DNA from: Cheilinus undulatus
Lineage: Eukaryota; Chordata; Actinopteri; Labriformes; Labridae
Assembly (NCBI RefSeq): GCF_018320785.1
Contig: NC_054884.1
Location: 22,011,667-22,075,666, forward strand
DNA length: 64,000 nt
Reading direction: 5' to 3'
The position numbers were made by a program, and so were the translations under genes. Within the stretch, counting starts at the first letter, position 1. Each line of letters starts with the position of its first letter. The notes below the pieces were generated by a model. It worked only from the letters and a program-made list of their open reading frames with translations. It was not told where the DNA came from and ran no database searches. Shown in pieces: positions 25,284 through 58,560 of this stretch.

Positions 25284-28200
25284 GTGAGTGTACAAAAAAC
25301 ATGGTTATTGTGATTTTTACTTGCATTTATTTGTTCGATACAATACAAATGCTTGATATTTCCTTGCTAGGTGAAGTTTACAGAGGAGTTTGAGTCGAAA
25401 GGAAAAGGTAGCTTCCCTGCCATGATCACACCGGGTTACCAGGCTGCTAAAAATGCCAATACTCTGGCCAGTAATGTGAGTAGCACAAGATATTTTCCTT
25501 TACATCCTTCCCCAAATCCCTAAAATCCCACCAGCTGTTATAACAAATATGTCTCTTCTATGGTTTTTTCCAGCTCGAATATAAAAAAGGACACGAGGAG
25601 AGAGTTTCTAAATACACCACGTTTGTTGATCCACCAGAGGTGATTTTGGCGAAGAAACAGGGGCAAATTGTTAGCGATGTAAGCGTTTATACACTGATTT
25701 TATACACTAATACAGCATGTTTTATTTCATCATTGGACTACTTATCCCAGATGATACCAGCTGCATTAAGCAGTTTAAATTCTTTCAAATAAAAACAGAC
25801 ATTATTGTGTTTTTTTCCCCTTAAGTATGCATATACAGAAGAGTATGAGCAACAGAAAGGTAAAGGGAGTTTCCCTGCACATCTTACACCTGGATACAAG
25901 ATGTCAAAGAAGGCCAGTGAGCAGGCTAGTGATGTAAGTATGGATAAACTAAAAAGTACATGAACTGTTACAGACCCCTGATCCTGAATTAGTCATGCTT
26001 GTTTTTTTATTTTTTCCCCCAGATAAAGTATCGTCAGACGTATGAACAGGAGATTAAAGGGAAAGCAAGCACGGAGGCAGCTGTGGCTGAAGCCGTTCAT
26101 GCCAAAGAAAATGCAGAGAATTTCAGCCAGGTGAAAAAAAAAATTGCTCATAAGTTTTCATTAATGAGTGTGATTATTAAAGCATATTATCTTCCAACCC
26201 AGCATTAGTTTTACTGTTATTTATATTTTAATGGTGGATATTTAGTTACATGTAGTTCATAGCTTCAGATATAGACATGGAATGTTGTGGGGATCGGGTT
26301 AATTTTAGCCCACTGAATGCCTTTATATACTTAACATTACTTTTTGAATTAATTATAAATGAATAAAATTGAATTCAGTAAGTAATGTTCCCTTTGCAGA
26401 TTGCCTACACTGAGGAGTATGAGCAACAACGGGGCAAAGGAAGTTTCCCTGCCATGATCACTCCTGGTTATTATCTTGCAAAGAAGGCTCAGGAGAATGC
26501 TAGTGATGTAAGTATCACACATACAGCATCCAAGTGTCCCTTACATGTCATTTCAATGCAGTTTAAACTGTTTAAGTTGTTGTATCATGGCTTATCTACC
26601 AGGTAGTCAATTCAAAGTCTTATTCCAAAACGTCACATCATATATAGTTGAGACAGCTACCATCTACATTTAAAATGGTACCCCAGAAATAAAAGGCACA
26701 AAGGATACGAATAAATACTACAATAGAAATACATTTATTAATATTATTTTGGTTGTACGCCTAATTTGGGAAAAAAGTCTCTCTCTGTTTTTGCAGTTTT
26801 GATCATTATCAATCGTATGAATTTCATTCAAATTATGATTCAAGTTATTATAGCATAGTTTTTATTAAATGGAAAGTATGTAAATATTGCCTTGTAAGAT
26901 ATTTAGTCAACTAATTTGGATATTAGAAAGTGGAAGAGTTTAGGAACAACAGCAGCTTAACTGCGAAGCAGAAGCTCACGTAAAATCACAGAGCATGATC
27001 AACAACTGCTAAGGTGCATGGTTCATAAAAGAGTTCTGGATTTGCACTGGCATTTATGAAAGCACCAAAAAACTGGCTGGACAGTCATGTAATGGGTTTC
27101 CATGGCAGAGAAGCTGCATGCAAGCGTCACATCACCAATTCCAATGCCAAATCTCGGTTGGAGTGGTGTGAGGCACACCGACACTGGACTGTGGGGCAGA
27201 AGAAACATGTTATGTGGAGTGATGGATCACGCTTCTCTGTTTTGCAGTCAGATGGGTGAGTCTGGGTTTGACGGATGCCAGGAAAACGGCACCCACCTGA
27301 CTGCTTTCAGTGTTACATTTTGGATCTAAAGTTACAGTAGTTTAAGGTTAGACTATCAAAATCTGTAGGTGCTTTACAGTTAAAAATGGAGTCTGCATCT
27401 GCCATGATGTTCACTCTGTCAAAGCATTTCAAAGTGTGGAGTGCAAAAGCTCCAGTTTCATCCATCATCTGACCATGTCATCACCATGCAGAATGCATGA
27501 GAGAAAGCAATGATAGAGCCTCCCTGTCTGCATGTCATCACTCTTTAACTCTCCGCTCTGACTAAATTAGACTGTGGGAGAGTGTTTGCAAGCATCATTA
27601 ATGTCCTCACACTACATGCTGTCCTCATACATGCAGTAAATCATCTCTCACCCCTTTGCAGCTCAAATACAGGAAAGACTTAAACAAGATGAAGGGCACC
27701 TCACACTTCCATAGTCTGACATCCGAGGACAATCTGGCTCTGAAGAATGCCCGCAAGATTAACAAGCTAGTCAGTGAGGTGAGCTTTTCAACATTTATTT
27801 GTGACCTGCCCTTTCTATTTCCTAAATCTATGCTTAAGTTTAAGATGGATGATGCTGTTAAGTGTTTAGAGCTGGAAATATCAGGCATGGTGACTAAGTC
27901 TCCAGCAGACATGAAGCCACCTAAGTTGCATTTTTAGCATCTCTGACATGTCACCCTGCTGGGGTTCCATTCAAGGCCACAGGACACCCTGTCAAAATAA
28001 AGTTACCTCACACATGAGCTTTGCATTTAAGTCACTTTAAACCATCCTCAAGAAATAAATATGCTAGAATAATAATGCTAGCCATCCTCTAAGAAAATGT
28101 GAGATTTAAAAACTGAGTTTCTTTTCTACAAGGTGAGCTCTGTTTAGCATGAATGTTCAAAAGTAAAAAACTCTCTTTGGTTATTTTGGTGTTTAAGGCA

Positions 28201-31200
28201 CTGACATGTTGAATGGTGCCATGCTGTCATTGTTAAGCTAAGCATCACATATTTCAGATTTAAGGTCTCTGTGTCTCTTGAGTTATGAGAGAAAAGTGTC
28301 AGTGATGGTGACTGATGAGTGGCGAGTACTTTAAAGCTAGGACATAACTGAGCTCAGGCTGGGCGTCAACAAAAACAAGCGTCTGAGACAGAAAAAGAAA
28401 AAATGTAACAAACCAGCTGCTGTCATTTTTCATATGTTAAATCAGGTGGAGTACAAGAAAGACCTGGAGAACACCAAAGGTCACAGCATCAATTTCTGTG
28501 AGACGCCGCAGTTTCAGAACGCTGCTAAAGTCGCCCAGTTCACAAGTGATGTAAGTTTTAACAATCAGTACAGATGAATTATTGGACTTTTGAGAAGATA
28601 TTTGGCCATAGCTTATAAATCATCTGAGCATGATGATATGATAGAATCCTGCCAGATAATTTTTCTTTATCTTTTTTTTTAAAGAATAAGTACAAGGAGA
28701 AGTACACCAGCAATATGAAGGGCCACTATGAAGACTCAGGAATCGATAAGAAGACGATGCACGCCATGAAAGCCAGGAAACTGGCCAGTGATGTAAGGAT
28801 TGATTTTTCATGGACTTATTGCAGTAAATCAAAGCAATTATACATATCATTAGGGCACCAAATTTAGTCAATTTTTGATTTGTAATCAAGGGTTTAATGT
28901 TTTAATGATGATATTTAATGTCCGATTTAAAAAGCTATTCTGATTATCCTACTGTTGCTGTGTTTCTTTTGCTGACAGTAATATATTCGGGATAGTTATT
29001 ATTATAATTTTGACCAAAATTAATATTTTTGATATATATTTTTTTCCAAAATATATGCAGAATTCTTTTTCTAAGGATGCACAATAATATCAGCACAATA
29101 GCTTAAAAGCTTAAAAAGTAAATATCTTATTAGCAGATTTGAACATTTCTGACGATATTTGGATAAATTTTAAAGGAAATTAGTATTGATAGCCACTTAC
29201 AAGATTAAATTAAATCAAAATGAAAAGGCTCTAAGAGTTGGAATGGGGATGTTCATCTGGGTTTGTTAACTTGATGCTCTCATGTAATAGAAATTGCCTT
29301 TAAGGGGCTAATAGATTTTGCATTGTTGGGTGCTATTTTAGCTTATATTTTTTCTTAGCGAAACCAAGTTAAATAGATAATTTAATTGATTATTTATATA
29401 AAATGTTCAGTAAAACTAGTTGTTTCTTAAGAGAAGAGAAGTTAGTTTCTTAGCATTTCAGTCACATAAAATCTTCAATATTTTAAAAATAGTAACTTTA
29501 AATTTAGAAAAATATAGCCTATCCCTTGCTTCATCTTATGAGGCAAGAGTTAAGTCTGTGGAGTTTTTGACACAACCTGGTATACATCAGTACTGGCACT
29601 AAAAAAGGAGAATGGAAATTTCAGCATATCAGGTGTAGAAAAAAAATCGGATGTCATATCACTGTCATAGCTTTCTTGTTTTCTCCAGATTTCTTATAAA
29701 CAAGGTGTGGAACAGGAGCAGGGTGAATACAACTACCCAGCCACCCAAACACCAGGTTACAAAAGCGTGAGGAAACTGGACCCACTTAAAGACGTGAGTC
29801 AAGTCCAAGTGTCAAACATTATTTAATCTTTTTTTTTGTTTGTTTGTTTACAGTGGTATGTCTTTATCTAGTTAATTTCCATCCATCCGTCCCTCCATTA
29901 TATATCAATGGGTGAGAGGCAGGGTATTCCTTGGACTGACAGTCCAAGGAATACCGGTCAATCACAAGGCTGACATATAGAGAAAAACAACTGGACACAC
30001 TCACAACTTCGGGCAATTTAGAGTCTCCAGTTAACCAAAAAAGCATGTCTTTGGGCTGTGTGAGGAAGCCGGAGTTGGGGGGCTGTGTTGGCTGAATTGG
30101 TAGAGCAAGGATCCACGCCGGTCACTGGTTTAAATCTTTACTCTCGCTACCACTGTCTCATCTCATGAAGGCAGAGATCAAAAATAGTCTTTAAAAATGG
30201 AGCAGCACTGTTATTTTTGTCTTTTCTGATTCATTTCTCATAATTGTTTTTCCAGAAAAACTACAAGCAACACATCGACCAAGTCAAATACAGTCCTGTG
30301 ACAGACACTCCTGAAATTATTTTAGCAAAGAAAAATGCAAATCTTGTCAGCAATGTAAGTATTTAATGGATAAATCACCATAATGGTTTAAAAGTAAAAG
30401 TTTAGATGTAATACCAGCTCTATCAGCATTTTTTAACTGCGTATGAAAGAAATGGCTGTTGGGTTTTATTGTGTTCATGTATCTTTTAGCTCAATTACAA
30501 AGCAGACTATGAGAAGACCAAACATCAGTACACACTGTCCCAGGACCTGCCCCAGATTAAAAAGGCTAAAGCTAATGCTGCTTTGTGCAGTGATGTAAGT
30601 TATGACATCTGCAGTATTCATGCTTTATTATGTGGTTGATGAAAGGAAAGGGTTTATTTACTGAGGTGAATTTGTTTATTACAGATTAAATATAAGGAGG
30701 AGTGGGAGAAGACCAAGTCTAAAGCCTGTGACATTGGCGTGAACGACCTGAGTGTCAGAGCAGCGAAGGCTTCCCGTGACCTCGCCAGTGATGTAAGCAA
30801 ACACACGCTATCTGCCACTGCAAGGAGAGTGACTGTATGAGCAAAACAGCTAAGTGGGTTTACTCAAATATGATAATTAAATTACACGGACATGGGTTTC
30901 AGATTAAATACAAAGAAACCTACATGAAGGACAAGGACAAGGCAGTTGGGGTCAACGTGAGTGACTCCAAGACTCTGCATTCTCTTCAAGTAGCTAAGAT
31001 GAGCAGCGATGTAAGCAGAGATAACTATTACAACACTGAATAGTCAATACCACCAATTTTTACACATGTTATACTTAACACTAACAATCAAACATAACTG
31101 TTTTTATTACTACTACTTTTGTCAGATTGCATACAAGAAGGGCTCCAAGGAGAGCCAGAGTCAGTTCAGTCTCCCTCATGATATGATCAACCTGAGCCAC

Positions 31201-34200
31201 GCCAAAAAGGCTCAGACCCTCGCCAGTGACCTGGAGTATCGCACAAAACTGCATGACTACACTGTCATGCCTGATGACATCAAGATTCAGCAGGCCAAGA
31301 AGGCTTATGCTCTGCAAAGTGAGGTAAGAGAGGGGAAGAAGATATGACTCATATCATAGCTGTTTTAGTGATGTTCTAATACAAATAAATAAGGGTCAAC
31401 TGATATTGTTTTTTCAGGGCTGATATTGCCACCTATTAGTAGTAGTGCATGTGACTGATAACTGATATATGGAACTGATATGCATTTGTTATGACAACTT
31501 CTACTTAACGTGGCAAAAGTAAAACTGCATGTTAACAATTTAAGGAGGCATTCAGCACCAGCTCTGTCAACACCAGAAACAGCACAGATCAACACTGTGG
31601 CAGCAGGAAACAGGAAGTGATGCCATACATCACTCAGGCCTCAGTGTTGATTGGCTGGTAGTTGTGTGACATCATGACAGTCAGATAATGTTTCTAGTGG
31701 GACTTTAGGTGAGACCGTAGAGTAAAAACAAAACCAGAAGGGAAGACATGTCTTGCAGCGTAGCCAAAGTAGCACACCTTTGAATTAGTTGGTTTTTGCC
31801 AATTATTGGGAAAATAAAATGCAGATACCAATAACTGGCTAAATGCCAACTATTGGCATGAATGATCGGCCGGGCCAATAATTGGTTCAGCCCTACAGAT
31901 AAATGTACTGGAAATGCCTTAGATTTAATCTGAAAATTATTTTGCCAACCAGGTAATATCAAGTGAGATGCCAGACTCAAAAATTCTAAGCCTCTCCAAA
32001 TTAATTGTATGTAGCCTGTGATATCAGTGCACTGGTAGTATAGAGTGTAACATTACTGATGCTTAAAAATGTAATTACAACTTTAAAATAGCCACGTTTA
32101 CGTAGTTGAATTAAGGGTTTTGGTTATATTTAAGTTTTGAGTTCAAAATCTGTGTTTCTCTGATCACTGGATGCCAAAGGAAATGTAAGCTAAGCTGCTA
32201 CCAGCATGGACTTACCTTGTTTGTAGTTTCTTAGCTTGTTGAGTTTGATCCTGAGTCAAGCTGTAAGAAAATGATAGAAAACAGACATTGCATTTATACA
32301 TGTTTACAATTATTACACTGTTTTAAAGTGACGAAGACAAACTAATTTTATGTACAACATAGCCCCACTAGCATATGGTGTGGCGTTAGTTAGCTAAACT
32401 ACATGCTAGAACAGCTTCAGTATAGCTGTATGTCATCTAGTTAAGTTGTAAGTTCCAGATAATATTGTTTACATGAGGTTAAGATAATTCTAAGAAAGAA
32501 AAGTAGAAAGACAGAAACCAAGCAAGAAAGAAATGTTTCTTGTTTTTTTAGAGACTGGGTGTCAAAGAACACGTTGGCTAAGTTGCTACTAGCATTGCCC
32601 TACTTTGCTTTATGGATCTCAGCTTGTTGACTTCAATGCTGAGTAAAGCTAAAAGAAAATGATGGCAAACAGTCATTATGTTTACACAACGTTAGAAGTA
32701 TAATACTGCTTTAAAACGTATTTTACAACAGTGCCCAACAAGCATAGAGTGTAACATTAGTGAGCTAAACTATATGATAGGAAACTTTTAATATAGCTGT
32801 ATTTAATTTAGTTAAATGATAAGTTCCGTACTGCCTTATTTACATGCGACAATTTTAAGAAGAGAGAAATGTATTTTATTTTAAAGCAAGTTTTTTTCAG
32901 AGACTGGGGGTCAAAAGGTACGTTAGCTAAAATGCTACGATATGTCTCAAATTGCATACTTCTGTTATTATAGCCTACTTTATTACAGTACACTTAAATG
33001 TAAGACAGTTTACATTGGTGTTAGAGTTAGTATTTTCTTAAAAAATACATTACTGTTTTGCACTAACAGGAAGTGACTGTTATAAAAGCCTCTGTTTTCT
33101 TCTTCACCTACTTTTTAAAAAGCAGACCAATCGTCATTTGGTCATGCTAATCAAAATTTGACAGCTATTTTTTTCTTTCACTATGGGATTCATGTAACTT
33201 GTATTTCCTTTCTAACATGATTTGTTCAAAGAATTTAAACTTTTGTGTTCTTGATTGAAATATGCTGGCATTGCTAGTAAAATGCTTTAATGTCTGCTTA
33301 ACATCTGCTTCATCACCAACATGGTGTTCACTGAGGGTGCGAAGTTTTGATCGTTTCACACTCAATTCCTGGTCGTTTTGAGCACACTAGTAGTATACAT
33401 TTGAGTATAGTTCTCAATTTAAACACACTTTACACACTTATGTACTTAAGATATTTAGTGTTTAGCACAGAAGCATATGATTTGGTACACACTTTGCTTT
33501 TTGTAGGTTTTTTTTTTTGCTTGTTTTATTGAGATGGTCAGGCTGCTAACAATCTTGACATCCAGTTTATCTTTTCAGGATTCGTAGTTTGAACTTCTGC
33601 AGTTAAGGGAAGTAATTAGAGGGGCACACTCAGTATTAGCCAATACTGAAGTGTTAGTGTCTGAACAGATACGGACTGTAGCAATGGTATCTGGATATCT
33701 CTAAGCTTTAACAAAATAAAATGTTGTTTTCACATTTTTTGCCTCCACAGAACCAGTATCGCTCTGACTTGAACTGGATGAAAGGAGTGGGCTGGGAGAC
33801 TGAAGGATGTATGAATATTGCCCATTCCAAGAAAGCTGGAGAGCTGCTCAGTGATGTCAGTACAATCATGTATTTGTGTTAAAATTCTAATGTTATCATC
33901 TTTTCTGGCACGTTGTTTATCTACTGCCTATTTTTTTCACAGACTAAATACCGTCAAAAGGTCGATAGAATCAAGTTCACACAGGTGGCGGATGATCTTT
34001 CCATCAAACACGCCAAGAAGAGCCAAGAACTGCAGAGCGACGTAAGGTCTTCATTGTTAAACTGTAATTATGAGCAATTCCAAAGTCTGCAATTGCAAGT
34101 CATATGTCTCCTGATTCTGATTTCCAGCTGGCATACAAAGCAAACACAGAACAGATAATGCATCAGTACACCATGACTCAAGATGAGCCCCTGTTCAGAC

Positions 34201-37200
34201 AAGCAAAGGCTAATGCTGATCTTCTCAGTGGGGTAAGTTCAGTGAATTGGATCCTAGAAAGTCTAATGAATGAGAACAGTGGTGCTATACTTTGCTAGTA
34301 ATATTTTCACAGAAGCACAACAGACTGAAGAAATTAATGCAGACCATGTTTTACTCATATGTTTCATTTCAATTCATGTACTTCATCAATAACTTAAACT
34401 TAACTTTGGGAACAACAACAAACATGCAAAAATAAATGATAACCTCATCTGTTGGGAGCACTTAAAATTTAGTCAAGGTAAGTCACTGTTCAAAGGAAGA
34501 ATTTCAGAAGTTTTTGCATTTCCTCTGAATGCTAACATTTCCCAATCTGTTGTGCTGTTAGATGTTGTGACCTTTCATTGGTAATAATGTCTGGTGTGCT
34601 GCAGGGGGCATTGTTTGGCAATGTTTTGCAATAAATTGATTTTGTCCTTTTCAGGAGAACACAATGCTGGTTTTGAATCAGTGTACTTTAACTAGCATAA
34701 TCCTCCCTTTAGTTTATGTCGGATGTTTATGAAACAGTAAAGTGGCAACCTTAGCGTGAAGCCATTTGCATAACAATTAAGTAGTGAGGAGGAAATTTTT
34801 CCAGTGCTACACAAAAAATCAGTTGTACTGATTACTGTCATCTCAGACAGTCCTTCCATATAACTACAGATCTATATCCCCCTTGGATCTAATTAGTTAA
34901 TGCTCTCTAAGTCTGCCCAGAATCTGGGCATCATGAGCGTCAATCAGCTGTCCTTAGAGGTTCACATGGCCTCAGTTGCTCCGTCATGCTGATTTGCCCT
35001 TTGTAACATCAGACAACATCAAACCCTAGCTGACAGGGATTGCAACACAGCTCTTAGTGCACGCTCTTAGGTGTAATATCATTTTTTGACTACTGCAGCT
35101 CGTTACTGGCATGCACATTTTAAACTCTGCAGATGATCCAGGAACACAGCTGCACATCTGGACCATCTGCAGATGCGCTGAGAGGAAGTGCATCTTTATA
35201 TTGCCTCTAGTAGTGCATGACAGTACCAGTGTCTGATAGGAGTTAAAGCAGTTTGCAGCTCTTACTACTGCTGTTCCCTCCTGTCTAGATTCTTGCTTTG
35301 GCTGTATAGTCAGATCTGACTGTTTGAGCTAACTCTAACCTCAGATTTTGTACTACGGATCCATGTAACTCCATTTAGTGTCTGCGTGTGGCTTTAAGTG
35401 GATTATCCAAGGAGGTTGACCATGAAGTAGAAATGAGGATAAATTGAATTATTGTGGAAAAATCTGCAAAAATACCAAATGGCATAATGCACTTTAGCTG
35501 TTTGTCACTTACTGGCCCATACAGTGTTTAAATACTAAAAGATATTTCATGGCCATTTCAAGTCCTTGAGTCTCTTCTGTGTACTTTAAGACCCTGTAAA
35601 GTGAAATCCAAAGTTTTTGTCTAAACACTCTAGAAATGTTGGAATATGGTTGCTGTAAACGTGAAAACTCTGAGATCTACATGAGACTGAATTCTGGATT
35701 TAGGCCATTTCATCTCGTTCCTGGCTTGGTTTCATGTGGGTGGGGCCAATGTGCGGGCTCATGATGTCATGAGCCCACAGTAGAGAAAGACCCCGCCCCT
35801 CTACCACTACAATATTGTGGAAGGAAGCAGTCACCTGGAGCAGGGACTTCTGGTTCATTTTGCGCAAAGGAATTCAGTCTTGTACCCTTGTACCGTTCTA
35901 TAATGTTCATGTTTCATTGCAAAGTTATAGTTATGCATGTTTTGTTTATTGGTTCATGTTTTTACGGGAAACTATTATTCCAAGTATGACACCATGAGTA
36001 AGGGGGGTAATGCTGCAGACTACCTGTGTCCTGAGTGGGCGGGGTTTCAGCTCATTCAATAGATATGCCCACACCATCCTGGAGCAGATTTTACTGCCTC
36101 ATTTTTCATGATTTGAAGCTTCATTTTATAAACTTGGAGATGCTTTATGTGACTGAAATTTGACCTGGGGGTTCATAACACAGTGATCTATCATATGACA
36201 AACCTAAAGATTTATTTTTACTTTACAGCGTCTTTAAGAAGCTCAGAGGAACTTGTGTTTTTAAGGACTGTATGCTGTCTCACATCTTGTTTTTAACCTT
36301 TTGTTAATGTTGTCAGCTTATCCTCAACTGACTTAAATTGGTAATTAATAATACTCATATGTTTGTATATTGGTTTCTGATAAATCTGCCTTTAAAACAG
36401 CTTATTTGCCTCTTCAAAAGCCGGTGAATATAGTCTTTATGGAGGAGGCTCAGCATTTTCTGCACTTTAATAAAGCTTTCTTTTTCTTCTTGTAATTTAG
36501 AAAGTGTACAAGAGCAGCTGGGAGAAGCAGAGAGAAAAGGGCTTTGAACTGCGTTTGGACTCACTCTCTATTCTCACTGCTAAAGCCAAGAGAGATCTGG
36601 CCAGTGACGTGAGTTGTTCTAAAAAACTGTCTGCAACTTTAAGTTCATCCTGAGGAGAGCATTAACATTTTTCTTTAAATACCATTGTCGATTTAATTGT
36701 GTATTGTTGCAGATTAGATTAAGTAATCAGTTGATGATAATATGTTCACTGGCTTTTGTTGAAGTTTGACAGTCTTTTTTGTGTTGTTCTCTCAGGTCAA
36801 ATACAAACAGAATTATGAGAAAAACAAAGGGAAGGTGATTGGCATTAAGTCTGTCAGCGATGACTCTCAGATGGCTCATTCTGCTCTGGCAACCAAACTA
36901 CAGAGCGGTCGTCACTATAAGAAGGACTATGAGGACAACAAGACCAAATACAGGTGAGGCTTCTCCGCCTAATAGTGCTTAATCCGAATCACAGAACAAG
37001 AACTAGCCAAATATGTTGTGCTGTCCTGGATCAAAAGGTATTTACTGTGTCAGATTAATCTCCCCTTTAGTCTTCACCTGGATATGCTGAACATCAGCCA
37101 GGCCAAGAAGGCTCAAGATCTGGCAACTGACACTAACTACAGGACCATCCTCCATGAGTACACAACTGTCCCATCTGACATGAAGGTTGCCTGGGCTAAG

Positions 37201-40200
37201 AAGGCCTACGGACTACAGAGTGATGTAAGTTTGATACTTAGGCATTCTTTAAAAGGTCTGTTATTTGCAAAAAAAAAAAAAAAAAAATTGAAGTTGAACT
37301 TTGTGTTTGTATGTTTAGAAACTGTACAGATCAGACCTGAACTGGATGAAGGGTGTCGGCTGGGAGGCCTCAAAATCTCTAGATGTTCAACAGGCGAAGA
37401 AGGCTGGGGAGCTGCTCAGTGAGGTAATTTATGACCCAGAATGCACTTCAGAAATCAGAAAACAAGCACTATATAAAACAGAGCATTTGTTAAATGATTT
37501 CCTGCGTAAACAGGGCAGTGCTATCAATGACTTGGGTAAAACTTATAGAAATTGCACTTTTATTCAAAGTGATATAAACAATTTATGACAGAGTATGTGA
37601 TATACCATGCTCTGGTGCTGTTTATAACTTTGGATATACGTAGGAAGACAAGCATAAACATAATTGTGCAACATATGGCAGCGTGTGTGGATCTAGGTTT
37701 ACAGCCAAGGTCAGAATGTATTTAGAGAGCTGTGGACCCCGCACTCAGTAACTGGGTTAAGTACTTGGAGTATATCCTGCTACAACAAGAACAGACTGAT
37801 TACAGTAATGGCCCACATTTTTCCTTTATCTTCTGTTTACCTAGTTTATTTGACCTTACGGTTTAGGACAAATCAATAGGCAAATAAAAAAGTCTGTTTG
37901 TTTTTACTTCATGTTTCTTTGCCTTTGGACCCTTTTAATGAAACTATTTTCAGCTTCCATTAACTGCACAGTATCAAGTTTCCAAAGGGCTTATTACTGG
38001 TGGTCTGCTATCCCCATATCAGTGTGTGTATTAATGGAAAACTCAGCCTAGTCGCTCCATACTGTTAACTTCTGACCTTTGATATTGTATCTGTTCTCGG
38101 CCCTGACTAATATAACATATATAATATATAATATAACATTCATATGTAACATTTTAATAACAAAATAATAATACTTTCTTATCGCAAATTTTAATTTAGT
38201 TTCATACAGTAATGTTTTGTATCCTACTTGATTCTATAGTATTGGCCAATCTTCTGTGTAGTGATCATTCGTTTCGTTTTATTTCACATCATTTTATTTA
38301 GTCTTGTCTCTTCTCGTATGATATCGAAGTTGTGCCGTATTTCGTATCCTATAGTACTGAACCTTACCATACTGTATAGTTTATCTGTTTTTTTTTTGTG
38401 TGTCTTTTCATATCATTTTGTATTGTGATGTGTGGTATTGATTTGGATCAGTTGTATGATTTTGTCTTTTCTCGTCTCATATTCTATCTTGTCCTATCGT
38501 AACGTATCCTATCCTATCTTATCCGATCCTATCCTTTCGTATCATATCACATCGCATTGTATTGTATCCTGCTGTATCCTGTCCTATCCTAGCCTATCCA
38601 ATTGTATCAATCAAATTGTATGGTCATGTATCCTGTAGTCTTATTTTGTCATATTTTTATTAGAATGGTTCATTTTGTGTTGTAGCCAGTGTGTCATGTT
38701 TTACCATATTGTGTCATGTACCGTGTTGTGTCATACCGTATTTTGAATCAGTTGTATCATTACATTTGGTCTTGTCTCATTTGTATCGCAGTGTTTTTTA
38801 ATTTTTTTTTTTTTTTTTGGTGTCCTATCATATTTGATCCTTTAGAATCGTAACCTACTGCATAGTTATTATTTTGGGTTTTTTTCATATCATAATGTGC
38901 CGTATCCTATTATATCATATCTTATCATATCGTACCATTTTGTATCGTATCATATTAAATAATCTCATAGTTTAATTTTATTTGTGTAATTTCCTCTCCT
39001 CTCATCTCGTATCAATGTTTTGTTTATTTCATATGCTATTGTATTATATTCTGTCATTTCATATTTCTTTATACGTCCTATCGTATTGTAACCTTTTGTT
39101 TTGTTCCATAAGGTTTTGTATCATCTGTGTCATTTGGTTTTGTATCATATCATATAGGAGTTTCGTTTTTTTTTTTTTTTTTGTAACTTATCATATCATA
39201 TCCTAAAGTAAGACCGGGAAAGATAGAATTAAATTGCCCCCAAAGTGAAATTTGCCCTTCTATCTTATCGCAAAGTTTCATTTTGTTTTGTTTCATACCG
39301 GTAATGTGTCGTATTTTACCATATTGTACTGATTATTTTGTATTGCATCACATCTTATCTTATTCTACCATATCAAATTGTATTCTCTGTAAAACACTTG
39401 ACACTTACCTTATTATCAGAAATTCTTTCATCCACTATAACTATTTGTAAAGGATGTTTAAAAATGCAGGATCCTTCTGAGTTACAGAGTATTTATATTG
39501 ATCCTTTTTGTAAATGTGTGCAAGCAGTGCATGAAGATATTTCTGTGTCAGAGCTGGTGCAGACTGGTATCACCAGACTCTATTCATAACCTCATCTTGG
39601 ACAGCTGACCTGGACTTTAAAGAATCATTCCAGTCAGACTTTCCAACATTAGACCTTGAAATGATAGACAGGGCAAAAACAGAACATACACTTAGAAATC
39701 TCCTAAACAGATCCATACCATATTTAATTTATAATATTCTACAGTACAAAAACATTTGTTAATGGCAGTATTTCAAAGTTTGTATGTTGATGTTTATTCT
39801 CTTTTTAGAAAAAGTACCGTCAGGATGTGAGTGCTCTGAAATTTACCAGCGTTGAAAACACACCTGAGATGGTTCAGGCCAAACTCAGCAACAAACTGGC
39901 CGTTGATGTGAGTTCAGCTGATCAAAAATGTACCCAAAACAGAATGTTTCTGGGATGACCTTTCGTGTCTTAATGGCATTTTTGGGCTGATTATTTAAAA
40001 TGACACCGGGGGCATAAATTGTTATATTTTTATAACCTTTCCATGATGCCATACTTTAATTAAATAAGGCATTTTTGACCAAACTCGTAATCTCGCTAAT
40101 CTTAGAATGTCCAACTCAGGCAGATGTGGTTTCTTTTAGATCCTGTAAATATGCAAAGTTAATGCTAAAAAGACCATTGGGAGGGATTAGGGAATCAATA

Positions 40201-43200
40201 ATGCCTTGTTTCTGACTTTACAGAGGTTATACAGGGAGAAAGGTGAAAACATGAAGCACAACTACACACTGAGTGGAGAGCTGCCTGAGCTTGTTCAGGC
40301 CAAGATCAATGCTATGAACATTAGTGAGGTGAGACACACTACACCAATCTACCTCTCTGCTGTGTGCCAGAGTGATGATGTTTACATGAAACATAACTTG
40401 AACTTCTGCTGCTGTGATCATTTTTAGAGCTGTTACAAAGAATCCTGGACTAAGCTACGTGACGGCGGTTACAAGCTGAGCCTGGATGCTATTCCTTTTC
40501 AGTCTGCAAAAGCATCAGCAGAGATTCTCAGTGATGTAAGCTTGCAACTTATTCTTCTTTATCATTTAGAAAAGCTGCAGATAATTTCCTTTCACTCTCA
40601 AACAATTTCAAAGAAGGGTAAAATGATGAGTGTAGTTTACAGATAAGATCAAGTTTTTGAGGTTTTTTTTTTTTTTTTTGATGACCTTAAATTCAATGAA
40701 CCATTGGAAATTTTTCAACTCAGCAAAAGTACAAGGAAGAATTTGAGAAGAGCAAAGGGAAGATGATTGGCTCGAAAGGTTTGCAGGACGACATCAACAT
40801 CGCTCACTCTGTCCATGCCAGTAAACTGCAGAGCGATGTGAGTTCTTGTAATGGTTTCATAAAATACAAAGGAACAAATAAAACAGTATATTTTAAAGAC
40901 AAAATGTCCCTTTTTCAATTTCAGATTAAATACAAGAAGGACTCAGCGAAGGAGCTGTCCAAGTTCCACCTGCCCATGGACATGCTGGAGGTGTCTCACG
41001 CTAAGAAGGCCCAGTCTCTGGTCAGTGATCAGGACTACAGGCTCACCCTGCATCAGTACACCTCACTGCCTGATGACATGAAGGTGCAGGCTGCAAAGAG
41101 AGCGTACGCCCTGCAGAGTGAGGTGAGACAGAGGGCGGCAGCAAACAGTGTTGCTACTAAAACTCACAAGTGTTGTTTTTAACTACAATGATTGGAAGCA
41201 AACACTCTATCTGGATGTGCCACTGTTGAATTTAGAAATGCATTTCTAAAAAGTGTTTATATGTTCAACAGAAAGTATATCGCTCTGACCTGAACTACCT
41301 GCGGGGTGCAGCCTGGATCGCCACAGGGGCTCTTCAGATAGAAGGCTCCAAGAAAGCCACAGACCTCATCAGTGATGTAAGACAGATCATGGTTTTTCAT
41401 TCTCTTTTTCATGTTTCAATCCATTTTTAGTGCTATGATGTGTAGATATCTTTGATTTCAGAACCTGTTCTTAGTGGTTATATAGTCTATGAAATGTTTT
41501 TTTTGTTAGCAATAATAAAAAATATGTATAAAAGAGACTGTATTGCTTCTTCTGAAACAGAAAAAGTACCGTCAGCAGCCATACAACTTCAAGCACACGT
41601 CTGTCACTGACTCTCCTGATATCGTCCATGCGAAGATCAGCGGACAGATCACAAATGAAGTAAGAAAATCAGCCCTAAGTTTAAATACTTATTTGGAAAC
41701 TTTTGCTTAGTTTTCCTAAATGGCTGTTATTTATTTGTACAATAAAGTTGTCATTGTAACTTAATTAAAAACCTTTTTCTATCCCTGTCTCTTTTAGCGT
41801 TTGTACAAAGAGAAAGGAGTGAGTGATCAGCATAACTACACAATAACGACTGAGAGACCAGAGATAACACAAGCAAAAATCAATGCAGCCAACTTCAGTG
41901 AGGTAGGGATTCCTGCATGGACAAACTGTCTACATTTTCACATACAGTAGCTTGTTGTATTTTGGAGAGATTATTGATTGTTGTTCTCTTTTCCCTTAGA
42001 TTAAGTACAAGGAGTCATGGCACACTCTGCGAGCTCAGGGCTACAAACTCACCATGCAGGACATCCCCTTCCAGGCTGCGAAGAGCTCCACAGGCATTGC
42101 CAGTGATGTAAGATTAAACAAAACTGCAGTGATTGTCAAAAATATCCACCTAAATATACTGTGATAGAGTAATAAAGAGTTTTACCACTTATATCCCTAC
42201 AGTACAACTACAAACACAACCACCTGCTGGAAAAAGGAAAGCACATCGGCGTCAAGAGTGTCTTGGAGGACCCACATCTGCTGCACTGCATGCAGGCAGG
42301 CCGCCTGGCCAGTGACCAGGAGTACAGAAAAGACGCTCTGACCACCAGCGGGCAGTACCACCTCACCCCTGACATGATCAACCTGGTGACGGCTAAGAAC
42401 GCCCAAGCTCTCGCCAGCGATCAGGACTACAGGAAGAGGCTGCACGAGTACACGGTGCTGCCTGATGACATGAAGGTCAAGTGGGCCAAAACAGCATACA
42501 ACCTGCAGAGCGAGGTCTGTTTTAGGAATGGATGATCCAGGTGTTATCACTGTGGTCCAGCATCACTGATGTGTCTTTGCTCTGTTTGTGTAGAAACTGT
42601 ACAAGTCTGACCTGAATTACATGAAGGGCGTGGCCTGGGATGGCGTGGGAGCACCTCAGCTGGAGTCAGCCAAGAAGGCTGGAGAACTCATAAGTGATGT
42701 AAGTACTTATGGTTCATATATTTAGATTTAGACAGATGTATTAGCAAGGGACATTGATCATTTATATATGAGGAAAATTCAAAGATGGTCGCAGCAGATT
42801 AGGCAACCACACATAGAGTAGTTGTAAAATGGTACAAGTCAGACCTGAGTTTAGTTAGAATACATGTCTTTATTTGCTTCTAGGGCTGTATACAATGTGA
42901 AATCTCATCATGTGTGTTTCCTACCGTTCAAGTGTTTTGCTCTTCTTTCATGCAGAAGAAGTATCGTCAGCTGCCAGACAGCCTCAGGTTCACCTCTGTG
43001 GCTGACTCTCCGGACATCATCCACGCAAAGGCGAGCTATCAGCAGTGCAGTGAGGTGAGGTGTAAACAGAAACATACGAGGAAATGATCGAAAGTCTTAT
43101 TTTTCCATTAAATAGTTTGGTCGTGGGTGCCGGTGTAGCTCAGTTGGTAGAGCAGGCGTCAACGTCCTTAACGCACTACTCGCATAATTGATCCCCAGTC

Positions 43201-46200
43201 TCAGTGTGTATTTGGTGCACATCATTCCCCATTCTCTCTCCTCATGTTTCCTGTCTCTCTTCAGCTGTCCTGTTAAAATAGATGCCCAAAAATAACCTTT
43301 AAATAATATTTTGGTTGTATTGGTTATGATGTAAACTAAACTAACTAAACTAACAAAATATGGAAAAACAAAATGTAAACTCATTTTAGTTAACTGAAAC
43401 TAAAATAGAAATTAAGCTATACAACAAGGGTGGGCAACTTTTCAACCAAGAGGACCATGTTTGGGCAGTTAAACTATCTAAGGGCTGAAGTATTATCAAG
43501 TAGAACACCCTTAACTGACTAATAAAAATTTAAAACTATTATAGCCTTGCATGGAGACCCAATAGACAGCACTGTATGCTTATTAACGCTTCTCGACATA
43601 TGACAATTTAGTGCCTATTAGACCAGGTTGAAACATCAAGCTCTGCCTCCTGCTCTGTTAAACCGAACAAGCTGAAATACACAAAATATGTGTTGTGATT
43701 TATTCAAAAAAAGTTTTTAAATAATGGTAATAAGTTTTTTGAGTATGTCTCAAGTTAAAACTTATGATTTACATGTTTTTCATCCACTGCATTTTCCCTT
43801 TAGTCTTTCACATATTTTTGTTTTGAACCCTCGTGCCACCCAAATTTAAGAATGTATTCTTCCACAGAGTTCAGAACATCACCCTTGCTATGGTGAAGTT
43901 AGTCCACACATGCAGGACTTATCTAACTGAGTGGGTAACTTAACCCATGGTGTAAAAGTGTCTAAAGCCCAAAGGCATTCTTGAGAAACTATGAAAATTA
44001 CAGAATGATTGCCAGATGATTTGAGTACAGTGACAGTGAAAAATACTTAGAATGATTACTTGAAGCTAAAAATCTGTTCTATCAAGTTTGAAAAAATAGA
44101 GCTGAAATAGCTGTTTTTGAATTTTAAGGTAACACAACCCATTTTTTAACAATCTTGCACTGTTCAGCCCTACAGTTTGTCTGTCCTACCTTTGGTTTGG
44201 ATTTTTCTGTTGAATTTGTAAAAGTTTGTTCAGTTCAGTCAGGACTACTTTAGCTGGAAACACACATAATGTGTGGCTATAAATATTTCTTTATTAGCAG
44301 GAAGTAATTAGTTCTTATGCTGTTACTTATGTTCAGCTCTGTGGCTGGGATCCCCCTGCCCTTCTATGAGTTTACGTAGAAAACCTCAAGCAGGAACAGC
44401 ACACGTTCCTGCTCTTCCTATGCAGATAAGTAAAGCCTGAGGCAGGGAGAGAAGCATCAAAACCCCAGAGCCGAGCAGGCATAAATGACAACAGAATGAC
44501 ACTGAATAAGTCAGAACACAGGGTTGACAATTATCCCAGCAGGGGTGAAAACATCTTTTTTTGAAAGGGGGTCTGCATTGGCAACCCAAGCCAAGGTAGT
44601 AAAAATTAGTAGATTTTAGGTGTTTTAGGTCTTGAACTGTATTCAAATATGATAAATAAATAGCCCATAAAAGTACAATTAAACAGTATTTGATCTTTTT
44701 CTTTATACATGTATGATGTTTTCTTTTACTGGACCTTCGGGTCTGTCCCTTGACTAGTGCCTTATATTATGTAGAAAACTAAAACTAACACAACAATGAT
44801 AAAAACTAAACAAAAAACTAAACACAAAAATAAGAATTAAAAACTAAAACCAGCCTTAGATTGAAAACAAAAAGTTGAAAACAAAACAAAAATAAGAACT
44901 AATGAAAAATCCCACACTATTGTAACCTTGGTACTTCTGATAAAAGTATAAAGTTGTTGATATCCTGTTTATGCTTTCACAGAGGCTGTACAAATCTGGA
45001 AAGAATGACGACATGCACAAATACACGTTACACTCAGATGATCCTGACTTCGTCAGAGCCAAGATAAACGCCCAGCAGATCAGTGATGTAAGACACAAAG
45101 TCTAAGTCCTTTAAATCTTGTTATAGAGAAGACTTGAATCACTTTTGTGACAATTTTACTTTCTTCCAATGCAGAAAGTTTATAAGGCTGCTGGGGAGCA
45201 GGTGAAGACATCAGGCTACGATTTGAGGCTGGATGCTATCCCCTTCCAAACCGCTAAGGCCTCTAGAGAAATCGCCAGTGATGTGAGTTTTATAAAATCA
45301 CTACATTTGTCATAAGATTTCAACAATTTTATCAAGTTATTCCCCTTAAATAAAGCATTTCCACTATTTTGGAAACCTAAAAATATTTCAGTCAAATTAA
45401 CTTGTCTTAAAAGAAATCTGTCAATTCCCTCCCACATAGTTCCGCTACAAAGAGTCTCACCTGAAGGAGAAGGGCCAGCAGGTGGGGCTTCGCTGCGTGG
45501 AGGACGACCCCAAAATGGTGCACTCTCTGGCAGCCAGCAAACTCCAGAGCAACCTGGAGTACAAACGCCAGTCTAGGGAAGACCAGGCCCACTACAAAAT
45601 CCATGCGGACCAGCCTGAGTTCCTGCTGGCCAAGAAGAGTCAGGCTCAGGCCAGCGACCTCACCTATCGCCAAAGACTGCACGACTACACATGTGACCCC
45701 CAGCAGCTCAATGTCAAGCACGCCAAGCAGGCCTACAAGCTGCAGAGTGATGTAAGTCATGGAGATTTTTCAAGCACATTGTTTTAAGATTTGCTCAAGC
45801 TAGTGTAAATCATTCAAGTCGCACATAATTGAAAGAGAGAGAAAAGTGCTTTGATTGTGTGTTGTCCTTTGTGGCACAGTGGCCTCTGGGTAATTTGAAA
45901 CATTTATAAGCGATTTTCACACAGCTGGAAATTTCTTGAAGTTCAGGCAGAAAATTTCAGGAAGTTTTTAGTAGTTTTGCATATGCAAAAAAGCGGCACT
46001 TTAAATGACTGTTTCTTACCTAATGGGTCAGGACCCTAAGTGTGCCACTTAGCTGATTTCACTAGGTTGCACATGTGCCTGGATTAAAAAAATGGCATCA
46101 AGTCATTTATGTAAGGAAGCCGTTTGCAACCATACTCACGTTTATTTAAAGTAACTACTTTTTTCCATGATAATGAGTTAATAGATTGTATTCTTGAAAT

Positions 46201-48552
46201 TTCCTCAGACTATTTAACTCTTAAAATAATAACAACGCTCACTTCTCAATGATAATGCACTTAACAGCCAACATTTCCATGTTATCTTAACAAACTGAAA
46301 GTATATAATGCATGCATGTACTTTTTGTGTTAAATGTTTTGATTTAAACTATAAAACACTTCCAGACTTAAAGCTTTTGTGTCCACAGCTGCCATTTTTT
46401 GTGTTGGCGGCGCTCATTTTCCAAACAAAACCAATACAGCCTAGCTTTTCAGCCCTCCCTGTCCAAAATCCCCCTCAGCATCAGATGTTTTTGCTGACGC
46501 ACTCAGAGATTCAGAGAGCTCAACATTTGAAACAGCATCCTGCTAAGTTTTCCTGCACTGGCCAATCAAAATCAAAGGGTGGGCCTTTGACACCAGCTTT
46601 AGTTAGGATGATCGTATTGGTCCATAAATGAAAGGAGCCCTAAAAATATGATGGTCTGTATTTTTTATATATTAAATTATTACCCTATCAGCATAAGTGA
46701 CACTATTTTCTCGTATTGCCTAGGAAAATATGTTCATTCTTGCTTTTATTGTAATGAAAGTAATTTTTAGTTTTAGTTTAGTTTTTAGTTAGGGCTGGCT
46801 GATACAGACAAATATATCTCAGTATTTTGTAGTTGAATGATATAAATGTGGATATTTCTATTTTTTTAGACACCCAGTAAATGAGCAATTTAACTATTAT
46901 AATCATTAAAATTTGCAGAAAAACTTTTACACACTAAGTTGTGCAAATATACTGGTAATGTTTATGTATCCCAGGGCTATAACAAATTTTTATACTCTAA
47001 AATACGTGTGCTTCAAAATACAGTTTTGCAGGCTTGGTTCGGACCGTGCTGATAGGGCTGAATGTGACGTCTTTTCATGGGACCCATAATTCCTTGCTGA
47101 CCCACAACAGCATTGTCAACAGCAATAATGGAAGAAAACTGACTTTTCATGGGTCAAGTTCTAACCTGACACACCAAGTAGACTGTTTCATACATCCATT
47201 GCATGGTTATATGAAGCTCCCAAATCTCTTATACAAAGCGTTTGGGAAGGGCAGAGTAGGTAACCTGAGATCGACGGGCAGGCACTCCTAAAGTTTATGA
47301 ACTGTGGAGCTTGTTTGTGGATAAAACTCATGCCATGGAAGGTCAAGAAGGCAAAATAAACATCTTCACTGCCAGGAAAAGCTTTCAGTGTGGTTCTATG
47401 CTCTTGTTTTAAGAAAGAAATGTGGCCCAGTTTTGATGAACTTGTCATTATACTATGGCTACACCAGTGATAGCCATTTCTTTTGGCTTTGAGTACAACA
47501 AAACCCCATTCCTAGCCACCACCTCATCCTCCTAAAACGATGAAGATTGTTGTTTGGGGATGACACAAACGTTGTGGGTTGGAGCTTTGCAAGATGGGTT
47601 TGCCTGTTTATGAACATGGAATCTGGCCAGTCCATCTGCATGCAAAGTTATTCCGGGCCTACAACTGCCACATATACTATACACACATATATAGAAGAAT
47701 TTTTGTGTTGAAAATGTAGCCATAACCCAGCAACAATAAACACTGGTGAGTACTACTCTAAAACTGAGGCCTTGGGTGCTGCCCTAGCTAAAAGCAGGGG
47801 TTGTGTATGGATACAGGCCTTACTTATAACACTACATTTTAAGTAAGGAGTAATAATCAGGGTCTTACTGATAATTTTTGCCTTTCAAGTATGTCATTTC
47901 GATTTCAGATATGGTGATCCTGATCCAAATATTCCACTGTATACCCACTAAAACACATTTCATTCTTACAACCTCAATGCACTGATATAATTGTTGCGCC
48001 ATCTTTAACAGGTGAACTACAAGTCAGACCTGAACTGGATCAAAGGAGCGGGCTGGACCCCTCCAGGCTCCCATAAGGCCCAGCTTGCCCGGCGGGCTGC
48101 AGAGCTTGGTCTGGCTGAGGGAGTCAGCACAGACGAGGCCATTGCAAAATATCAGCACATGATGATGGTGAGGGAATGTGGAAGAAGAATCCTGCTGGAT
48201 GAACCATTAGCATGCAAACTTTCATGCAGGTTCTCTAAATCATTTTTTTTTCTTTTAGCTCTACCAGCAGCAGCAGATGGAGCAGCAGCAACAAAACCAG
48301 CAGACTTCAGAGGAGGTGGAGACCAGCGAGGAGGTTCAAAGTGGTGTCAACATGGACGCCATGGAGGTCCTTCACGTGAAGAGGAAGAAGACCATCCAGA
48401 CCGTGCAGAAAAAGTCCACCAAAACAATCACAACCTCGTTTAGATCCATGGAGAAGAAGTCCAGCACCTCGTCGTCTTCATCAGCTGCTCTTCAGAACTC
48501 AGTGCAGACGTCATCCATGTCGAGTAAAGCTGCTGCGATAAAGGACGCTTAG
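20555..48552 (+). CDS. nrap: Nebulin-related anchoring protein (NRAP)
   Basis: Actin-binding LIM-nebulin protein of striated muscle that links terminal actin filaments to the membrane at intercalated discs and myotendinous junctions and acts in myofibril assembly. I joined 43 coding exons, all GT/AG with consistent phases, into 5415 nt (1804 aa; human about 1730). Order: LIM domain (aa 1-61), linker (to aa 154), five modules with GKGSFP-type repeats (155-332), two or three single modules, super-repeats, a final partial repeat and a serine-rich tail. Nearly every exon is phase 0-0 and ends with codons for (A/L)xSD, so one exon equals one nebulin module. The markers DLNWMKGVGW, DLNYLRGAAW, DLNYMKGVAW and DLNWIKGAGW start super-repeats at aa 684, 927, 1170, 1413 and 1656, each 243 residues apart. 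ATG at 20555 starts MQSCARCGF, as in human NRAP. Exon coordinates are in the block entries below. Confidence 0.96.
21935..24853 (+). other. nrap intron 3, no gene seen
   Basis: 2.9 kb of AT-rich intron with GCTAGC/AACGTTAGC words common in fish DNA. The GC-richer stretch at 22440-22800 is open for 135 codons but shows no domain, no repeats of the host modules and no fitting splice sites. Confidence 0.5.
25371..28792 (+). other. nrap: nrap exons 6-13: NRAP-type single modules
   Basis: Coding exons 25371-25475, 25574-25678, 25826-25933, 26023-26130, 26400-26507, 27662-27778, 28446-28550 and 28685-28792. Exons 6, 8 and 10 share the module TEE(F/Y)E...GKGSFPA...TPGY, alternating with exons 7 and 9. 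Exon 11 has DLNKMKG, exon 12 GHSINFCETPQF (human GHSINYCETPQF). All are phase 0-0, so any one can be skipped in frame. Exon 12 is 105 nt (35 aa), the size of the segment known to differ between cardiac and skeletal NRAP isoforms in mammals. Confidence 0.92.
26925..27335 (+). mobile_element. Truncated Tc1-like transposon in nrap intron 10
   Basis: Plus-strand frames give a Tc1 transposase piece: GFHGREAACKRHIT, then WCEAHRHWTVGQKKHVMWSD and GSRFSVLQSDGW. Just 5', AACAACAGCAGCTTAACTGC and AAAATCACAGAGC come from the N-terminal half. Both ends and much of the middle are missing. The frame shifts after QSDGW, so it is a dead fragment of another Tc1 family than that in casp7. Confidence 0.8.
29689..31323 (+). 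other. nrap: nrap exons 14-19: first seven-module unit
   Basis: Coding exons 29689-29793, 30256-30354, 30490-30594, 30685-30792, 30903-31010 and 31126-31323, together 723 nt (241 codons). Module sizes run 35, 33, 35, 36, 36 and then 66 residues in one two-module exon. The unit lacks WMKG in its first module (GVEQEQGEYNYPATQ instead). It is two codons shorter than all later units because exon 18 is 108 rather than 114 nt. Confidence 0.92.
30066..30212 (+). mobile_element. Decayed tRNA-derived SINE remnant
   Basis: GTTGGCTGAATTGGTAGAGC resembles a tRNA A box and GGTCACTGGTTTAAATCTTT a worn B box, followed by a short body ending near ATAGTCTTTAAAAATGG. It resembles the better-preserved copy at 43124. 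It sits in nrap intron 14, close to exon 15. Confidence 0.5.
32155..32940. repeat. Degenerate tandem duplication in nrap intron 19
   Basis: Two long copies (about 32160-32510 and 32550-32880) and a third start at about 32899 share the order of blocks: GACTGG-GTCAAA, GTTAGCTAA-TGCTA, CTTGTTGA, GAAAATGAT, AGCTAAACTA, TATAGCTGTAT and AAGTTCC. The period is about 350-390 bp. There is no coding capacity and no transposon end. Confidence 0.6.
34233..36500 (+). other. nrap intron 22, non-coding apart from a MITE
   Basis: 2.3-kb intron. Bases 35586-36237 are a TTAA-flanked element; the rest shows no recognisable feature. Confidence 0.5.
35586..36237. mobile_element. TTAA-flanked MITE, piggyBac-like
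   Basis: TTAA (35586-35589) is followed by GACCCTGTAAAGTGAAA. At the other end TTTACTTTACAGCGTC comes before TTAA (36234-36237). The termini are inverted copies and TTAA is the target duplication piggyBac elements use. About 640 bp, no transposase frame, so it is a non-autonomous copy. Confidence 0.65.
37319..41122 (+). other. nrap: nrap exons 26-31: third unit
   Basis: Coding exons 37319-37423, 39809-39907, 40224-40328, 40428-40535, 40724-40837 and 40925-41122, sum 729 nt. The last three modules are split 114/198 at a module border, as in the first unit. Intron 26 (37424-39808) is 2.4 kb and contains a degenerate pentanucleotide array. Confidence 0.93.
38200..39380 (+). repeat. Degenerate TATCC/TATCA pentamer array
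   Basis: More than 1 kb of intron 26 is built from variants of a five-base word (TATCC, TATCA, TATCG, GTATC), clearest at 38480-38600 (ATCCTATCCTATCTTATCCG). Strand composition is strongly pyrimidine-biased. T-runs at 38797-38819 and 39169-39182 lie inside it. Confidence 0.7.
43124..43308 (+). mobile_element. tRNA-derived SINE, second family
   Basis: The head GTGTAGCTCAGTTGGTAGAG is an excellent tRNA A box, followed by CGTCAACGTCCTTAACGCAC and a worn B box (AATTGATCCCCAG). The body contains CCCATTCTCTCTCCTCATG, and the tail is ATAACCTTTAAAT. The flanks TTAAATAG-TTTGGT and TTTAAATAATATTTTGGT look like a worn target duplication. It sits in nrap intron 38. Confidence 0.7.
43315..43425. repeat. 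AACTAA-rich low-complexity repeat
   Basis: Repeats of AACTAA and ACTAAAA near the SINE. A second, longer tract of the same composition lies at 44765-44905 in the same intron. The two tracts may bracket an old insertion, but no ends are visible. Confidence 0.4.
45752..48011 (+). other. nrap intron 41, no gene seen
   Basis: 2.3-kb intron. The part 46020-46130 carries words of the CAGTGGTTCCCAA-type hAT MITE (GGGTCAGGACCC). The part 47030-47720 is open in several minus-strand frames, but I recognise no protein in it. Confidence 0.45.
48012..48552 (+). other. nrap: nrap exons 42-43: last module and C-terminal tail
   Basis: Coding exons 48012-48167 and 48259-48552 (stop TAG). Exon 42 holds DLNWIKGAGWTPPGS, as in human NRAP (GVGWTPPGS). 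Exon 43 starts with a glutamine-rich run, reaches EVLHVKRKK (human EILHVKKKK, near its end) and then continues for over 50 residues of Lys/Ser/Thr-rich sequence (KKSSTSSSSSAAL...) with no counterpart that I recall in human. Confidence 0.9.
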
Positions 48553-58201: not shown

Positions 58202-58560
58202 CGTCTTCAAACCATTTCTGTGTAGCTTTTGCTGTATGCTTCAGGTCATTGTCTTGCAGGAAAATCATCCTCCAGGATTTTCATATATTTTGCTGCATTC
58301 ATTTTACCATCTACCTTTACAAGCATTCCAGGCCTGGCTTCTGAGCAGCATCCCCACAGCATGACACTGCCACCGTGCTTCACAGTGGGGATGGTGTGTT
58401 TCTGGTGATGTCTAGTGTTTGGTGTCTGCCAAACATAGCATCTTATCTGATAGCCAAAAAGCACAATTTTTGACTCATCAGACCAAAGAACTTTCTTTCA
58501 CTTGACCATGGAGTCTCCTGTGGGACTTTCTTCAACAGTGGCTGTCTCTTTATCACTTTT
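58202..58560 (-). mobile_element. Tc1-like transposase fragment beside microsatellite
   Basis: Minus-strand frames read [20 protein letters not shown] and [18 protein letters not shown], then, after a frame change, [19 protein letters not shown], the C-terminal catalytic half of Tc1 transposase. Both ends are absent and the frame is shifted. It lies just upstream of habp2. Confidence 0.8.

Follow-up and report, generated by a model that had tools for sequence, protein, structure and literature searches.

Four nebulin super-repeats of 243 codons and one probably new intron in the nrap gene of Cheilinus undulatus

Introduction

How strictly can the length of a repeat protein be held when its gene is not cut into exons in the same way from one repeat to the next? 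The question is raised by the nrap gene of the labrid fish Cheilinus undulatus, which lies in a 64,000-nucleotide (nt) stretch of contig NC_054884.1 (assembly GCF_018320785.1, forward-strand positions 22,011,667 to 22,075,666; hereafter the window, with positions counted from its first letter). A preliminary description of this sequence had reported consecutive super-repeats of exactly 729 nt whose exon cuts differ, and had ascribed them to strictly held protein length, block duplication, and drift of the gene structure. Each nebulin module is described as an actin-binding unit, seven of which form a super-repeat, and one motif recurs at the troponin/tropomyosin spacing (PMC7109182, PMC11026289, PMC12732394); biallelic loss of NRAP has been reported to cause dilated cardiomyopathy (PMC7857588). 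We consider it very probable that the locus is best explained as a whole by an NRAP orthologue with ancient super-repeats, selection on their length, and one probably new intron.

Results

Unit lengths and comparison with human NRAP

The coding region of the nrap model comprises 43 exons (5415 nt, 1804 codons) and reads from its start codon to a single stop (Table 1). Exon borders were assigned manually at GT-AG sites, and a script joined and translated the exons; all 42 introns are GT-AG, 40 of them in phase 0 and two, introns 2 and 24, in phase 2, with intron 2 located in the LIM part. Pfam identified one LIM domain (PF00412) at residues 4-55 and 24 significant stretches of Nebulin (PF00880, E 2e-227), the order of N-terminal LIM and nebulin repeats that characterizes NRAP; at E 0.001 it matched LIM and Nebulin only, and no C-terminal SH3 domain was found. 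NRAP has 11 simple repeats between the LIM domain and the super-repeats, to which exons 3-13 may correspond; these too number 11, but exon 3 is only partly repeat.

Five consecutive units of seven modules, designated U0, A, B, C, and D, measure 723, 729, 729, 729, and 729 nt, in keeping with the five seven-module super-repeats of NRAP. All five, U0 included, begin with exons of 105, 99, 105, and 108 nt, and the 3′ remainder is cut as 108+198 in U0, 158+154 in A, and 114+198 in B and consists of a single 312-nt exon in both C and D. Every number that the preliminary description gave for the four 729-nt units holds, and the name it gave to the gene is borne out by the LIM and Nebulin matches and the human alignment; we likewise confirmed that the preceding unit is two codons short and located the deficit in module 5, which has 36 residues instead of 38. 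Module lengths are 35, 33, 35, 36, 38, 31, and 35 residues in each of A, B, C, and D, as described for the nebulin super-repeat (seven modules of 31-38 residues, about 243 in total), from which U0 departs by its two codons. The units open with DLNWMKGVGW (A and B), DLNYLRGAAW (C), and DLNYMKGVAW (D), and DLNWIKGAGW follows in exon 42; the WLKGIGW-like motif expected once per super-repeat is present in 4 of the 5 units in the chosen register, module 1 of U0 being without it. Because R1502 of human NRAP, which is placed in super repeat 5 (PMC5469774), falls in unit D, U0 would be super-repeat 1 of the published scheme. The equal lengths are evidently not due to chance, because the Nebulin match has the E value given above and the four units align without gaps to human NRAP.

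The human NRAP sequence used for this alignment has 1730 residues, which equals the published length, and was correct at 19 of 19 published residues tested (17 of 17 positions from published variant tables, plus Q988 and G307; M1 also fits, which says little). In units A-D, 972 of 972 codons aligned with 0 gap openings at 59.5% identity, each unit being 243 residues long in both species. Elsewhere there was 1 gap opening in 83 aligned codons of exons 1-3, 6 in 351 of exons 4-13 (the simple repeats, 54.7% identity), 1 in 239 of U0 (241 codons here and 239 in human, which is shorter in module 5), and 2 in 78 of the C-terminal tail. Were gaps spread in proportion to length, all 6 openings of exons 4-13 would miss A-D with a probability of 3.5e-4; the value is 1.1e-3 for all 7 when U0 is added and 7.8e-4 for all 8 when exons 1-3 and U0 are added, a rough control in that exons 4-13 include linkers and the counts vary with aligner and region cuts. 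By this comparison, codon length is evidently held in units A-D, and more tightly than elsewhere in the protein, which upholds the claim of strictly held length for these four units.

Exon cuts and the intron difference

The further claim that gene structure has drifted found mostly no support. Published exon numbers for named human residues (tables and text of PMC7857588, PMC12732394, and PMC10657503) were transferred to the alignment. For human exons 1-16, window and human exon numbers coincide at 9 of 9 anchors; for human exons 28-41, the window number is higher by one at 8 of 8. Human NRAP has 42 exons in total, compared to 43 coding exons in the window, and one net intron is absent in human between exons 16 and 28. 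The positions of W1033 (exon 28) and E1190 (exon 31) require human unit B to be split as in the window; S1342 and D1362, which flank the module 5/6 border of unit C, are both in human exon 35, so that C is fused in human; and T1458 (exon 37), R1502 (exon 38), and G1671 (exon 41) leave modules 5-7 of D a single human exon. By exon number, then, human NRAP has B split and C and D fused as well, so that these states are old, and what differs is one net intron.

That difference is most simply assigned to either the 108|198 intron of U0 or the phase-2 intron of unit A (intron 24), although exon counting may also be compatible with compensating changes or with fusion at another module border. The unit-A intron most likely accounts for it, because no other intron of the repeat array is both mid-module and outside phase 0. 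We therefore think it probable that, on the ray-finned fish side, a phase-2 intron was gained in the middle of unit-A module 6 once the super-repeats and their exon lattice had been fixed, and that the codon count of the unit stayed as it was. Loss in mammals, by which U0 modules 5-7 would have become fused in human as the 108|198 intron disappeared while an old phase-2 intron persisted in unit A, seems to us unlikely. Exon counting alone permits it: human exons 17-27 cover U0 module 4, U0 modules 5-7, A, and B modules 1-3, and if the other borders are as in the window, the 3′ segments of U0 and A have three human exons between them. In addition, it is human U0 that is shorter by two codons in module 5. 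However, such a loss requires A, and no other unit, to have carried a mid-module phase-2 intron from early on, in a gene where 40 of 42 introns are in phase 0 and the LIM part contains the second phase-2 intron. B, C, and D have no comparable intron, nor, to judge from the numbers, does exon 81 of human nebulin (NEB); the intron site that U0 and B share falls at an ordinary border between modules; and teleosts are said to have a higher intron turnover (PMC12357937).

When the unit-A intron was compared with the whole window by blastn-short (E up to 1) to find a local donor copy, it matched itself only, and the matches listed in a literature search included no title dealing with how nrap introns evolved in fish. 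The 114|198 intron may have been gained in B and U0, or it may have been kept there while A, C, D, and NEB lost it.

Age and order of the units

In a maximum-likelihood tree of whole units from the window and human, each unit of A-D paired with its human counterpart (support A-A 90, B-B 98, C-C 98, and D-D 100), and the branch parting both U0 from the other units had a support of 100. The pairs recurred for A, B, C, and D in trees of modules 1-4 (58, 92, 95, and 95) and of the 312-nt segments (69, 78, 84, and 98). Deeper branching was weak and differed among trees, with C+D (56) and then B (39) for the 312-nt segments, B+C (57) for whole units, and B+C (80) for modules 1-4; the segment tree, from which the youngest unit was to be read, thus joins window units to human units but does not single out a youngest one. 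Within the window, residue identity among A-D is 44-51%, and four-fold degenerate third positions agree at 27-43% (37-42 sites per pair), versus 26% expected from composition.

Because the units pair with their human counterparts and four-fold agreement is low, the duplications appear to predate the split from human, and there is no sign of recent conversion. Block duplication stands as the origin of the array, but as an old rather than a recent event, and the accompanying record of intron loss or gain comes down to the one net difference. Equal length might also follow from common duplication origin and too little time for indels, with no constraint on length at all, as all of them descend from a single ancestor by tandem copying and have exon cuts in common. 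We regard this as very improbable: units A-D differ from one another at 49-56% of residues, their four-fold sites are not far above chance, and the window and human proteins differ at 40% of residues with 0 gaps in these 972 codons versus 6 in the 351 of exons 4-13.

Splice choice in unit A

When left unspliced, the 3′ segment of unit A meets a stop at once (KTKYR, then stop). Three splice pairs with both sites of at least 2 bits keep the frame open; the chosen pair alone yields 104 residues, and the other two, with weaker sites, yield 70 and 96. The chosen donor scores 9.1 bits and the acceptor 4.8 bits (medians of the 42 introns, 12.4 and 8.5), and the weakest sites in nrap score 2.0 bits (donor) and -2.3 bits (acceptor). 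That 158+154 reflects a wrongly chosen pair, so that unit A is not truly 729 nt, is scarcely credible, since both sites, although below the medians, exceed the weakest in the gene, the unspliced frame stops, and with either alternative pair the segment would be shorter by 8 or 34 residues and would no longer align without gaps to B, C, D, and human.

The exon lattice of NEB

Published exon ends of human NEB (PMC12402328, PMC11026289) give 417 nt for exons 78-80, equal to 105+99+105+108, and 312 nt for exon 81; exons 82-85 and 86-89 are 729 nt each, and exons 90-105 are 2916 nt, or 4 x 729 in sum. Exon 55 is 105 nt long (PMC11924678), and the 9273 nt from its start to the end of exon 105 equal 525 + 12 x 729, the 525 nt presumably being modules 3-7. 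The use of one exon numbering across both papers is backed by two common borders (exons 10 and 32), with the transcript named in PMC11026289, and all borders used exclude those of exons 13/14, which are labelled inconsistently in the printed table. The 729-nt unit and the 312-nt closing exon occur in NEB and are therefore not peculiar to nrap; the unit pattern is the long-known nebulin super-repeat, and its length rule is ancient and already visible in the published NEB coordinates.

Besides the 729 nt per super-repeat over exons 78-105, NEB shares modules of 31 to 38 residues (PMC11026289). It differs in having four exons per super-repeat over that stretch, suggesting that modules 2 and 3 are joined in one 204-nt exon (a length derived from the 309 nt of exons 106-107), whereas window nrap has them as 99 + 105, and in other stretches that are off by 3 to 6 nt per two super-repeats. 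Human and mouse NRAP share with the window gene the LIM domain, the simple repeats, and the five seven-module super-repeats (PMC5469774, PMC9940605), as well as a 105-nt exon 12, four super-repeats of 243 codons, and, by exon number, the split in B and the fusions in C and D. Human NRAP differs by its one exon fewer, the net extra intron here being probably that of unit A, by its 239 codons in U0 versus 241, and by a tail of 78 residues versus 149. The longer tail of the window protein (exons 42-43) has glutamine-rich and serine-rich stretches.

Discussion

Judged from its sequence, the gene is an ordinary, well-formed orthologue of human NRAP, because the alignment, the pairing of units, the exon numbers, and the neighbouring genes agree: on the minus strand, nrap is flanked by a caspase piece upstream and by trypsin and kringle pieces downstream. 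These flanks match CASP7 and HABP2, which adjoin human NRAP. The compactness of the gene and the Tc1-like fragments in the window are in keeping with a fish.

We propose that the five seven-module super-repeats arose by tandem duplication before this line parted from that of human, on a lattice of 105/99/105/108/312 nt that is common to the paralogue NEB, and that the cuts in the last 312 nt combine old states (B split; C and D fused) with one probably new intron in A. Four super-repeats would have stayed at 243 codons through selection against indels where the modules lie along actin. A length lock set by actin register would tolerate substitutions and admit few indels, which fits both our data and the accepted view. 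The actin-helix reason offered in the preliminary description would likewise agree with the published model of one module per actin subunit along the filament. We infer both the selection for actin register and the direction of the intron change.

Several points weigh against this proposal. The exon borders were inferred from GT-AG sites, the human protein was verified only by its length and at the 19 published residues, and gap counts depend on the aligner and on region boundaries. U0 is not 243 codons long in either species. In NEB, exons 39-46 (1464 nt) and 47-54 (1461 nt) are 6 and 3 nt over two super-repeats, exons 106-114 (1452 nt) are 6 nt short of two, and exons 11-30, 31-32, 33-38, and 115-133 do not by themselves test the 729-nt rule.

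Searched by sequence, the Protein Data Bank returned no nebulin-like chain for a 104-residue segment of unit D (E up to 1) or for a 278-residue query (E up to 10). Among viral and prokaryote contigs there were 2 and 26 pattern matches, none of them confirmed, as expected for a vertebrate gene.

While our view of nebulin proteins is unchanged by these results, they provide a clean, checkable annotation of a disease-linked muscle gene and a figure for the strictness of super-repeat length, with no gap against human over the four units and several in the simple repeats. The unit-A intron offers a small example, open to dating, of what is probably an intron gain; if the gain is true, the otherwise similar repeats would provide a datable natural experiment on intron insertion sites in a length-locked protein.

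Feature coordinates and other observations

Table 1. Features of the nrap gene in the window
Feature	Position	Strand	Exon lengths or evidence
nrap coding region, start to stop	20555..48552	+	open frame, 42 GT-AG introns; LIM and 24 Nebulin stretches
Exons 1-13, LIM domain and simple nebulin repeats	20555..28792	+	exon model, Pfam
Exon 12, 105 nt	28446..28550	+	number and length match mammalian skeletal-muscle cassette exon 12
Unit U0, exons 14-19	29689..31323	+	105,99,105,108,108,198 = 723 nt
Phase-0 intron, module 5/6 border of U0, same place as in unit B	31011..31125	+	exon model
Unit A, exons 20-25	33751..37224	+	105,99,105,108,158,154 = 729 nt
Phase-2 intron (intron 24), 117 nt, inside module 6 of unit A	36954..37070	+	exon model, splice scores
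Unit B, exons 26-31	37319..41122	+	105,99,105,108,114,198 = 729 nt
Phase-0 intron, module 5/6 border of unit B	40838..40924	+	exon model; human B also split by exon count
Unit C, exons 32-36	41272..42514	+	105,99,105,108,312 = 729 nt
Fused 312-nt exon, modules 5-7 of unit C	42203..42514	+	exon model
Unit D, exons 37-41	42594..45751	+	105,99,105,108,312 = 729 nt
Fused 312-nt exon, modules 5-7 of unit D	45440..45751	+	exon model
Exons 42-43, fifth DLNWxKG marker and C-terminal tail	48012..48552	+	exon model, human alignment

Exon 12 of nrap (28446-28550) may be alternatively spliced, by analogy with the cassette exon of the mammalian skeletal-muscle isoform. For mouse nrap, reverse transcription polymerase chain reaction across exon 12 gave products of 549 versus 444 base pairs (PMC7370890), and human NRAP transcripts are 105 nt apart (PMC10657503).

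The caspase piece upstream of nrap (6346-6597, minus strand) contains QACRG, matches Pfam Peptidase_C14 (E 9e-9), and is casp7-like by eye. Downstream, at 52134-54524 on the minus strand, the trypsin piece (52134-52472) and the kringle piece (54327-54524) are habp2-like by eye. Intron 10 of nrap holds a Tc1-like transposase fragment (27029-27256, plus strand; Pfam HTH_Tnp_Tc3_2, E 4e-5, below the gathering score), and similar-looking Tc1-like pieces were noted by eye on the minus strand near 7484-7834 and 58249-58497, in the latter of which Pfam matched nothing. A long run of degenerate TATCx-type repeats, spotted on reading the sequence, occupies 38080-39350 (plus strand) in intron 26 of nrap.

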